Origin: Alphaproteobacteria bacterium
GTDB lineage: Bacteria > Pseudomonadota > Alphaproteobacteria > UBA7985 > JAUIBT01
Direction of reading: 5' to 3'
DNA length: 58,396 bases
NCBI GenBank assembly: GCA_030428255.1
Contig: JAUIBT010000023.1
Span: 1 to 58,396 of the forward strand
The translations under genes were made by a program, and so were the position numbers. Positions 8,260 through 32,224 of the stretch are shown here, piece by piece; the first letter of the stretch is position 1, and each line of letters opens with the position of its first letter. The notes beneath the pieces were generated by a model, which saw only the letters and a program-made list of their open reading frames with translations, did not search any database and had not been told where the DNA came from.

Positions 8260-8709
8260 ATGTCTGACCCAAAGTTTGACGACTTCAAACACCGCCTTGA
8301 AGCCGCGCAGAACGCGCACAAGCCCAAGGCATCGAAACGATCGGCTTCAGCAGCCGGTATGGGTGCAGGCATGCGGATCGCCATCGACTTTGTGGTCGCT
8401 GTGGCGGTTGGCTTTGGGATCGGATTGGGGTTGGACCGGCTACTTGGCACCAAGCCTTGGTTCATGCTTGTCATGTTTGCTTTCGGCATCGCTGCCGCCT
8501 TTCGCAACGCCATCCGCACCGCTGAGAAGCTGGATGCGGAGGCGAAGGCACGGCGCGAGGCAGAAACGGCCAATCAGGCGGCGCCAGACGTAAACCATTT
8601 ACCTGCCTCCGCGACTGTTTCGGAGCAGGGCCAAAAGACCCACGGTCTCGGCTGGTCGGACGATGAGGACGACGAGAACGAGCCTTGGATACACGAGTCA
8701 AAGAATTAG
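8260..8709 (+). CDS. atpI: F0F1 ATP synthase assembly protein AtpI/AtpZ
   Basis: A 149-residue small membrane protein, first gene of the F0 operon. A charged N-terminus is followed by two hydrophobic helices: IAIDFVVAVAVGFGIGLGLDRLLG and WFMLVMFAFGIAAAFRNAIR (quoted in part by family signature). This is the AtpZ/AtpI layout, in which the protein helps assemble the c-ring or import Mg. The tail of about 60 residues is acidic (SDDEDDENEPW) and longer than I expect for the family. The ATG at 8260 follows the promoter by about 70 bp. atpB starts ten bases past its stop. Confidence 0.85.
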   Translation: MSDPKFDDFKHRLEAAQNAHKPKASKRSASAAGMGAGMRIAIDFVVAVAVGFGIGLGLDRLLGTKPWFMLVMFAFGIAAAFRNAIRTAEKLDAEAKARREAETANQAAPDVNHLPASATVSEQGQKTHGLGWSDDEDDENEPWIHESKN

Positions 8710-8719
8710 GAGCGCGCTA

Positions 8720-9475
8720 ATGGCCGATCCCATGAAACAGTTCCAGGTATCAAAAGTCTTTGATACCGCGCACCCAACCGAGTTCGGTCCATTCGACCTG
8801 AGCTTCACCAACTCTGCCTTGGCGATGGTTGTCGTCGTCGCTTTGGCTCTGTTGGTTATGGGCGCAGCAGCGGTCCGTGCGGCCGTTGTCCCGGGACGTA
8901 TGCAGGCTGTGGGCGAGATGCTCTATGACATGGTCGCGGGCATGGTACGCGAGAACGTCGGCAAAGAAGGGCGTCCTTACTTCCCCTTCTTCATGGCGCT
9001 GTTCTTGTTCATCTTGTTCGCCAACGTCCTGGGCATGTTCCCGGTCTTCTTTACGGTCACCAGCCACGTCGCGCTGAACTTCTTCATCGCTATGATGATC
9101 TTCTTGGCGGTTACGGTCATCGGCCTGGTGCGCCACGGCGGTCACTTCTTCAGCCTGTTCTTGCCGCACGGCACGCCTTGGTACATGGCGCCGATCATTA
9201 TCCCGATCGAGGTCATTTCCTACCTGTCGCGCCCCATGAGCCTGTCGGTTCGTTTGTTCGCCAACATGCTGGTGGGCCACGTGCTGCTTAAGGTTATCGC
9301 GGGCTTCGTGATCTCACTGGCCGCTGGCCCCATCGTGCTGCAAGCACTGGGTGTTTTGACTTTCTCTGCTCTGCTGCCCATCGTGGCGCTGGAGTTCTTG
9401 GTGGCAGGCCTGCAGGCCTACATCTTTACGATTTTGGCGACCGTGTATTTGCACGACGCCATTCACTTGCACTAA
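8720..9475 (+). CDS. atpB: F0 ATP synthase subunit a
   Basis: A 251-residue integral membrane subunit a, forming the proton half-channels. It opens with the family-typical MADPMKQFQVSKVFD. The key stretch SYLSRPMSLSVRLFANMLVGH contains the conserved essential Arg facing the c-ring (in SVRLFANM). AGGAG at 8707-8711 precedes the ATG at 8720. The frame extends upstream into atpI but without a better start. Length and hydrophobic profile are standard. Confidence 0.95.
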   Translation: MADPMKQFQVSKVFDTAHPTEFGPFDLSFTNSALAMVVVVALALLVMGAAAVRAAVVPGRMQAVGEMLYDMVAGMVRENVGKEGRPYFPFFMALFLFILFANVLGMFPVFFTVTSHVALNFFIAMMIFLAVTVIGLVRHGGHFFSLFLPHGTPWYMAPIIIPIEVISYLSRPMSLSVRLFANMLVGHVLLKVIAGFVISLAAGPIVLQALGVLTFSALLPIVALEFLVAGLQAYIFTILATVYLHDAIHLH

Positions 9476-9538
9476 GGGTCGGTCGGCTCTTCATTTGCAC
9501 TCTTTCTCACCTTAAAAACCCTTCTTATGGAGATGACA

Positions 9539-9775
9539 ATGGACGGTTCTATTGCCGAAATGGGTAAGTACATCGGTGCTGGTCTGGCCGCTGCAGGCAT
9601 GATCGGCGCAGGTATCGGTGTTGGTAACATCTGGGCTTCTTACTTCAACGCACTGTCTCGCAACCCTGCGTCTAAGGACGACATCGGCGCGAGCGTTTTC
9701 ATCGGCTTTGCGGTAACAGAGGCGATTGCTCTGTTCGCACTGCTGGTTGCTCTGATCCTGTTGTTCGCCGTTTAA
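9539..9775 (+). CDS. atpE: F0 ATP synthase subunit c
   Basis: A 78-residue hairpin proteolipid that forms the rotor ring. Helix 1 is Gly/Ala-rich (GAGLAAAGMIGAGIGVG), the polar loop is SRNPASKDD, and helix 2 contains the proton-carrying Glu in AVTEAIALFAL. Two ATGs are possible: 9527 gives four extra residues (MEMT), while 9539 has GGAG six bases upstream and starts with MDGSIAEMGK. I prefer 9539. A 368-bp gap with a large hairpin follows, unlike the tight spacing elsewhere in the operon. Confidence 0.95.
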   Translation: MDGSIAEMGKYIGAGLAAAGMIGAGIGVGNIWASYFNALSRNPASKDDIGASVFIGFAVTEAIALFALLVALILLFAV

Positions 9776-9810
9776 TCTGCGAACAATCGGTTAGACGATT
9801 GCGATGGTCC

Positions 9811-9857
9811 GGCCGGGCTCTTGTCTTTATCGCTTCGGCGGTAAGGGCAGACCGGCC
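9811..9857 (+). promoter_or_regulatory. Long UUCG-capped hairpin between atpE and atpF'
   Basis: The only clear structure in the 368-bp gap (9776-10143). Bases 9822-9833 pair with 9838-9849 in twelve continuous pairs (four of them G-U) closed by a TTCG tetraloop. After a small internal loop, GGCCGG (9811-9816) pairs with CCGGCC (9852-9857). No T-run follows, so it is not an intrinsic terminator. Such a structure could stabilise or process the mRNA so that subunit c is made in excess (inference). The remaining gap holds no convincing gene. Confidence 0.55.
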
Positions 9858-10143
9858 GTCCCTTCCCACTCTCATGAAACCTGGGCCATTGAACCTGGGC
9901 GGAGCGGGGCGCTGGGTCGATCTTAGCCACCTTCGGCTTGTTTTGCTTTTAAGGCTTGCGCTCCTGCTGCGCGACTTGAGCCTTAACAGCACAACAAGCT
10001 GCCGATCTTAGGTGACGGTGCGCCATCGCGGCTCTGTCACACCCACAAGGTCCGTAGCTCCAGGCCACCGAGCCTGCCTTTCTGACACGTGGTGCCGCCC
10101 TGGCCGGTATCGCCGACTAGAGCTCTGTTCAAAGGAGACAAGC

Positions 10144-10623
10144 ATGCCTCAGTTTGATCAAGTCGATACCTTTATCGGCCAAGTCTTTTGGTTCATCATC
10201 ACCTTCGGCATCTTGTACGTTGCCCTGGTGGCCTACGTCCTGCCCCGCATGGCCGCCACGTTCGAGCAGCGCTCGAGCAAGATCGACGGCGATCTGGCAA
10301 CCGCTGAAAAGATGCGCCAAGAAGCCGAAGACGTGCGTGCAGACTACGAAACGCAGTTGGCCCAAGCCAAGGCTGAAGCCCACGAGCAAGCGCGTCAAGT
10401 CGCAGACGAAGTGGCCGCTGAAGCGGCTGCCCGCTCAGCCGAACTGAACGCTCAATTGGCCGAACAGGCCGCCAAAGCTGAAGCCAGCATTCGCGCCGCG
10501 CGTGAGCAGGCCCTAGCTGAGCTGCCCGCCATCGCCGAAGAGGCCACCGCCGCTATGGTGGACAAACTGATCGGTGGTGTTGATCGCAGCACCATTTCTG
10601 GCGCGATTTCGAACAACGCCTAA
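10144..10623 (+). CDS. atpF': F0 ATP synthase subunit b' (AtpF'/AtpX/AtpG type)
   Basis: A 159-residue peripheral-stalk subunit of the divergent b' type found in alphaproteobacteria and cyanobacteria. It has an N-terminal membrane helix (QVFWFIITFGILYVALVAYV), then VLPRMAATFEQRSSKIDGDL, a conserved membrane-proximal segment, and a long Ala/Glu/Gln-rich coiled coil. AAAGGAG nine bases upstream sets the ATG at 10144. atpF begins 28 bp past the stop. Confidence 0.93.
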   Translation: MPQFDQVDTFIGQVFWFIITFGILYVALVAYVLPRMAATFEQRSSKIDGDLATAEKMRQEAEDVRADYETQLAQAKAEAHEQARQVADEVAAEAAARSAELNAQLAEQAAKAEASIRAAREQALAELPAIAEEATAAMVDKLIGGVDRSTISGAISNNA

Positions 10624-10651: not shown

Positions 10652-11356
10652 ATGAAAAACGCGATGAAGTCTGCTTCAAGCCTGGTCTACACCGGGTTGA
10701 CACTGGGTCTGACAAGCTTTGCATTGGCAGGCAGCGCAGCCGCCGAGACCAACACGCAAGGCACAGGCAATGAAGCCGCCCACGGCGAAGCAAGCGAGGC
10801 CGCCCACGGCGCTACCGATGCCGCCCATGGTGCTGCCGACGCCGCCCATGGTGCTGCGGACGGGGCTCACGGTGGCTGGTTTGAGGCCGAGAATATCGTT
10901 CTGGCCGCCGTACTGCTGTTTGTTTTCTTTGTTATGTTCAAGGCTGGTGGCGCCATCCTGGGCATGCTTGATGAGCGCGGAAACAAGGTGCGCAGCCAGC
11001 TCGCCGAAGCGCAAAAGCTGCGCGAGGAAGCCCAGGCCATCTTGGGCGAAATGAAGGCCAAGCAAGAAGCTGCCAAGGAAGACGCCGCCAAGATTGTGGC
11101 GCAAGCCAAGGCCGATGCAGAGCACGCGCGCGCCAAGGCTATGGCTGACTTGGAAGCCTCCATCGCCAACCGCCAAGCAGCGGCGGCTCAGAAGATCAAG
11201 CAAGCCGAAATTTCGGCCATCGAGGATGTCAAGCAGAGCGCCATCGCGCTGGCCAGCCAGGCCGCTGCCAAGGTCTTGGCCAACCACATGGCTGCCGGCA
11301 ATGCTAGCAGCTATATGGACACGGCCCTCAAGGAAGTGCAGTCGCGCCTCAGCTAA
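10652..11356 (+). CDS. atpF: F0 ATP synthase subunit b with signal-like leader and AHG repeats
   Basis: A 234-residue b subunit, much longer than the usual ~160. Residues 1-32 look like a cleavable signal (charged start, hydrophobic LVYTGLTLGLTSFALAG, then SAAA-ET). Residues 41-74 hold five copies of [E/D]-[A/G]-A-H-G at 7-8 residue steps. The stalk anchor is the helix at 81-97 (VLAAVLLFVFFVMFKAG), then GMLDERGNKVRSQLAEAQKL and a long Ala/Glu/Lys coiled coil to the end. Some alphaproteobacterial b subunits do have a short Ala/His/Gly N-terminus; five regular repeats behind a leader are unusual. Last gene of the operon, followed by a terminator; F1 genes are absent. Confidence 0.9.
   Translation: MKNAMKSASSLVYTGLTLGLTSFALAGSAAAETNTQGTGNEAAHGEASEAAHGATDAAHGAADAAHGAADGAHGGWFEAENIVLAAVLLFVFFVMFKAGGAILGMLDERGNKVRSQLAEAQKLREEAQAILGEMKAKQEAAKEDAAKIVAQAKADAEHARAKAMADLEASIANRQAAAAQKIKQAEISAIEDVKQSAIALASQAAAKVLANHMAAGNASSYMDTALKEVQSRLS
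10772..10873 (+). repeat. In-frame repeats encoding five AHG units in atpF
   Basis: Tandem 21-24 bp units (for example GCCGCCCATGGTGCTGC) encode the [E/D]xAHG motifs at residues 41-74. The 3' copies are nearly identical in DNA, suggesting recent expansion by slippage; changes by multiples of 21 bp would keep the frame. Confidence 0.75.
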
Positions 11357-15976: not shown

Positions 15977-15979
15977 CCC

Positions 15980-16220
15980 GCAAACCCCGCAGGTGGATTT
16001 GCGGCAGACAATAAAGCAAACCCCGTAGGTGGATTTGCGGCAGACAATAAAGCAAACCCCGTAGGTGGATTTGCGGCAGACAATAAAGCAAACCCCGTAG
16101 GTGGATTTGCGGCAGGGCAACCCCGCAAACCCCGCAGGTGGATTTGCGGCAGGGCAACCCCGCAAACCCCGCAGGTGGATTTGCGGCAGACAATAAAGCA
16201 AATCCCGTAGGTGGATTTGC
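15980..16220. repeat. Seven-copy tandem array of a 23-nt imperfect palindrome
   Basis: Seven copies of GCAAAYCCCGYAGGTGGATT followed by TGC, separated by 13-14 nt linkers of two kinds (GGCAGACAATAAA or GGCAGGGCAACCCC), giving a 36-37 nt period. The ends GCAAA and TTTGC pair, so each copy can fold. A partial eighth copy follows at about 16233. The linkers are nearly identical, so this is not a CRISPR array. Three more copies lie at 32133-32224. Confidence 0.9.
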
Positions 16221-16240
16221 GGCGGGATATAGCGCAAACC

Positions 16241-32131: not shown

Positions 32132-32132
32132 C

Positions 32133-32224
32133 GCAAACCCCGTAGGTGGCTTTGCGGCGGAGCCCCGCAAACCCCGTAGGTGGATTTGCGGTGGAAAACC
32201 TGCAAACCCTGCAGGTGGCTTTGC
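32133..32224. repeat. Three copies of the GCAAACCCCG-type palindrome
   Basis: Copies at 32133-32155, 32167-32189 and 32202-32224 match the 23-nt unit of the 15980-16220 array, with GGCTTTGC or GGATTTGC at the right end. Linkers are 11-12 nt and differ from those of the larger array. They start directly after the asnB stop codon. Confidence 0.85.

Follow-up and report, generated by a model that had tools for sequence, protein, structure and literature searches.

The atpF gene of this alphaproteobacterium encodes a 234-residue subunit b of the F-type ATP synthase in which the membrane helix is preceded by a signal-like leader and a 44-residue tail carrying five AHG units. It lies at 10652..11356 of the window, i.e. 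the whole stretch of 58,396 nucleotides that was analysed, and this gene, its parts, and the other atp genes described below are on the forward strand. With a probability of roughly 75%, we interpret its product as an ordinary b subunit of an alphaproteobacterial-type bb' ATP synthase, equipped with a Sec-type leader that is removed and a flexible, acidic, His-dotted periplasmic tail that serves as a spacer.

By the mechanism we propose, the Sec-type leader would direct the N-terminus of b across the membrane and would be removed near residues 26-31, leaving a mature b whose flexible, acidic tail of ~44 residues would lie next to subunit a at its outer face. What would be kept in this tail is a length and a composition, with Ala/Gly, 5-6 His, Asp/Glu, and no Lys or Arg. 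We infer that its role is most likely that of a hydrophilic spacer securing the N-out topology, plus, at most, a slight contribution to the local exchange of protons or cations.

Gene identity and operon context

The translated open reading frame fills 10652-11356 exactly, in agreement with the original prediction of an AtpF of 234 residues, and a Shine-Dalgarno-like sequence is present 5' of the ATG at 10652. The product matched the Pfam family PF00430 (ATP-synt_B) over residues 83-209, scoring 73.7 bits against a cut-off of 28 (71.8 bits in a second search). It missed the NCBIfam equivalog cut-offs of NF009989 (124.8 vs. 249) and TIGR01144 (38.9 vs. 65.5), which, on these profile scores, marks it as a divergent member of the broader subunit b family.

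A profile search identified two PF00430 proteins in the genome, b and b'. The latter is encoded by atpF' (10144..10623) and is 159 residues long, with a short MPQF-type N-terminus and no tail. Further upstream are atpE, encoding subunit c (9527..9775), and atpB, encoding subunit a (8663..9475, the open reading frame as listed), both assigned from sequence and gene order; the true start of atpB may be the internal ATG of MADPMKQF. The resulting order of a, c, b', b is typical of the bb' enzymes of Alphaproteobacteria, and the order is identical at a congener locus (L004). Between atpE and the b' gene there is a spacer of 368 bp (9776-10143) with no convincing gene, and the congener locus has one of ~465 bp. 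This spacer may hold a terminator or another regulatory element that sets the expression of c relative to b.

The AHG repeat tail and its conservation in the genus

The tail (residues 32-75; 10745..10876) is a stretch of Ala, Gly, His, and acidic residues that lacks Lys and Arg and is predicted to be disordered. Its five AHG units place His at residues 44, 52, 59, 66, and 73. The counted spacings of 8, 7, 7, and 7 bear out the earlier description of five AHG units at 7-8 residue spacing ahead of the membrane helix. At the DNA level, TRF reported a 21-bp array at 10795-10874, with 3.8 copies and a score of 90. Four successive AHG-spacer-AHG matches were found only in atpF within the genome, and the remaining matches were scattered, with the exception of one 16-bp tandem.

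Two other genomes of the genus (G001 and G002) encode the same b protein, with 75-76% identity over the full length. Comparing the N-termini of AtpF in these close relatives, as the original prediction had suggested, showed that both share the layout of leader plus tail. The tail is 44 residues long with 5 His here, and 45 and 44 residues long with 6 and 5 His in the two congeners; all three tails are free of Lys and Arg. Amino acid identity among the three species was 41-73% in the tail vs. 86-89% in the stalk. Since length and composition have been kept while the sequence has diverged, the tail appears to be constrained in length and composition and not in sequence, and simple inheritance could account for part of the composition common to the three species. 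An artefact of sequencing or of start-codon choice is excluded. None of the three species has an in-frame ATG, GTG, or TTG within the tail, which rules out translation starting from within the repeats.

The DNA identity of the repeats had initially been taken as a sign of recent expansion. To obtain an expectation for this identity, we sampled synonymous codons from local usage at the comparable residues of the five units. The observed number of identical pairs (21 of the 41 that were comparable) was close to the expected 21.6, with P = 0.58 for all pairs and P = 0.24 for adjacent units. Because synonymous identity is at expectation and tail length is near-constant in the genus, recent expansion is unsupported, and repeat duplication is possible as an older origin of the tail.

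The same data bear on whether the tail is neutral filler of low complexity, lengthening and shortening through replication slippage. Its repeat structure and the low tail identity between congeners are what such filler would be expected to show, but the near-constant length, steady His count, and complete lack of Lys and Arg are not, and synonymous codons at the expectation from codon usage give no sign of recent duplication. We therefore regard neutral filler as unlikely.

N-terminal tails of b and b' across the class

In order to place this tail in a wider context, we surveyed the N-termini of b and b' using one genome per family or genus, with a second, previously unused genome set as the held-out half. 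The statistics cover 231 b or b' proteins from 120 genomes, with the genus itself left out. A scan of genome contigs with query peptides retrieved four Rhizobiales loci only, and these were kept out of the statistics because the query peptides had picked them. Tail length was counted before the membrane helix, leader included; starts were assigned by rule (preferring an ATG preceded by a purine-rich stretch), and single entries may be wrong.

Roughly a quarter of the proteins (63/231) had N-tails of at least 20 residues. His accounted for 3.3% of residues in these tails vs. 1.06% in the corresponding stalks (OR = 3.2), the stalk being a coiled coil and thus an imperfect yardstick for His content. 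This enrichment was replicated in the held-out half, with odds ratios of 3.1 and 3.35 for the two halves. A per-protein sign test was weaker, with His higher in 37 tails and lower in 17 (P = 0.009 overall and ~0.08 for each half alone). Lys and Arg together made up 3.9% of the tails vs. 15.9% of the stalks, a scarcity expected in outer tails from the positive-inside rule.

Several members of the class resemble the atpF product in parts. Other families too have b or b' proteins with signal-like leaders, and the combination of a signal with an AHG/EHG tail is found on b' elsewhere in the class. Like the b described here, the b' proteins of L046, L104, L141, L034, L042, and L129 have a leader and/or an Ala/Gly/Glu/His tail before the membrane helix, e.g. 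a leader followed by AEHAPDAAHGGEHASGG in L046, ADHGEGSGG in L104, and EGEHAEHAKK in L141. Several contain AHG, EHG, or DHG units, but their His units are fewer and less regular. Rhizobium-type b' differs from the atpF product in having a very short leader (MFVTxAYAQ). A parallel on b itself is a 223-residue protein from another family (L135, genome G155), whose acidic tail of 64 residues contains five His, including AHG, EHG, and further His units, but which has neither a clear leader nor the 7-residue periodicity.

The class-wide His enrichment keeps alive, without demonstrating it, the idea that the tail collects protons or binds metal, with His and acidic residues clustered at subunit a's outer mouth buffering or relaying protons into the half-channel or binding Zn or Cu. 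Two further observations are compatible with this idea: His is kept at 5-6 while the remaining tail diverges, and in the structure of the Bacillus PS3 enzyme, the loop by which subunit a contacts b near its periplasmic side is adjacent to the periplasmic half-channel and may reach the N-terminus of b (PMC6377231). Because of this possible contact, some local exchange of protons or cations by the tail is physically reasonable by analogy. As a dedicated function, it seems improbable to us, as many b and b' of the class have no tail, or a tail free of His, and can evidently dispense with it in general, and as the His sign tests are weak and use the stalk for comparison. A broader proposal would be that the class repeatedly evolves, on b or b', a disordered, Lys/Arg-poor periplasmic tail of His and acidic residues for adjusting the access of protons or metal at the outer half-channel; the version on b in this genus would then be an especially regular one that follows a signal. 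We consider this a long shot.

The survey also yielded some minor observations. Short b N-termini, too, were rich in His close to the membrane, with His making up 5.0% of the residues of b tails of <20 residues (e.g. LLHDTSFW; survey loci L006-L083), which suggests that His may be recurrent at the outer membrane face of b. Long tails on both b and b' of one enzyme were rare, being present in 3 of 111 genomes at the 20-residue cut-off. Mutual exclusion of long b and b' tails was considered and rejected: it had P = 0.013 at a cut-off of 20 in all genomes combined, was lost at 25 and 30, and failed to replicate in the held-out half. Very short leader-like N-termini (MFISxAYAA, MIISVAQAA, MFVTAAYAQ) precede b or b' tails of several families, at L018, L066, L067, L105, L128, L134, and L034, and are possibly degenerate signal sequences.

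Leader and membrane topology

The signal-like leader (residues 1-31; 10652..10744) was delimited from the sequence, the congener alignment, hydropathy, and a predicted helix. It consists of the short, basic n-region MKNAMKS, the moderately hydrophobic core LVYTGLTLGLTSFALAG, and a c-region that ends in SAAA before E32, with A26 as an alternative cleavage site. As judged by eye and by hydropathy, it has the n-, h-, and c-regions and the small residues at -3/-1, and the c-region ALAG[SA]AAA is aligned in both congeners. The claim that residues ~1-32 resemble a cleavable signal is thereby upheld.

Beyond the tail follow the membrane helix region (residues 76-99; 10877..10948) and the cytoplasmic coiled-coil stalk (residues 100-234; 10949..11353). 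An AlphaFold2 (AF2) model built from a 33-sequence alignment predicted a low-confidence leader helix at residues 3-26, an unstructured stretch at 27-78 (with almost all of residues 30-77 at pLDDT <50), and a long, mostly confident helix at 79-212, corresponding to a single membrane helix plus an alpha-helical stalk. The original prediction had placed the repeats outside the membrane, facing the periplasm. This location is well supported by sequence layout, since a tail that precedes the N-out membrane helix of b should lie outside whether the leader is cleaved or not.

A published comparison is the F-ATPase of Paracoccus denitrificans, likewise a bb' enzyme, whose mature b has lost N-terminal residues. 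In the purified enzyme, residues 1-17 of b are absent by intact mass, and b' begins downstream of the annotated start (PMC4593670). A cleaved b leader therefore has precedent, and by analogy the leader would be cleaved in this genus as well. Two leader-bearing b proteins of the survey (L006 and L112) are comparable to that of P. denitrificans; in these, a short tail lacking AHG repeats comes after the leader. An uncleaved leader, forming a second, N-in membrane helix and turning the AHG tail into a periplasmic loop that joins the two helices, would agree with the AF2 helix but is hard to credit, given the loss of residues 1-17 in P. denitrificans, the small residues at the end of the leader, and a best 19-residue mean hydropathy far below that of the membrane helix in all three species (1.3-1.6 vs. 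2.5-2.7). Several relatives (L042, L051, L064, L135, and L129) have tails of 40-80 residues with no obvious leader, so a leader is not obligatory for tail export.

Relation to known ATP synthases

The b subunits of Bacillus PS3 and E. coli share with the atpF product a single N-out membrane helix, a coiled-coil stalk, and a periplasmic N-terminus. Leader and tail are both absent from them (general knowledge and PMC6377231). Subunit b itself, processed b leaders, and N-terminal tails are already known or visible in many genomes. The regular AHG repeats in the tail of b mark a variant at genus level, in which a recurrent and little-described feature has been elaborated in one lineage. To our knowledge, b and b' are generally regarded as stalk subunits that lack any outer tail, and a search of an open-access library turned up no relevant paper on b tails rich in His or on a lumenal metal site of subunit a. 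Should such tails affect proton entry or assembly, a textbook machine would have at its outer mouth an accessory that evolves fast and has been overlooked; should they not, they are a warning against reading function into repeats.

Other repeats in the window

The window also contains tandem copies of a REP-like palindromic repeat, CGCAAAnCCCGTAGGTGGnTTTGCGG, with a spacing of 34-37 bp, seven at 15979-16222 and two at 32132-32191. Allowing at most 2 mismatches, this repeat occurs at 24 sites in the genome, compared with 0 for the reversed control.
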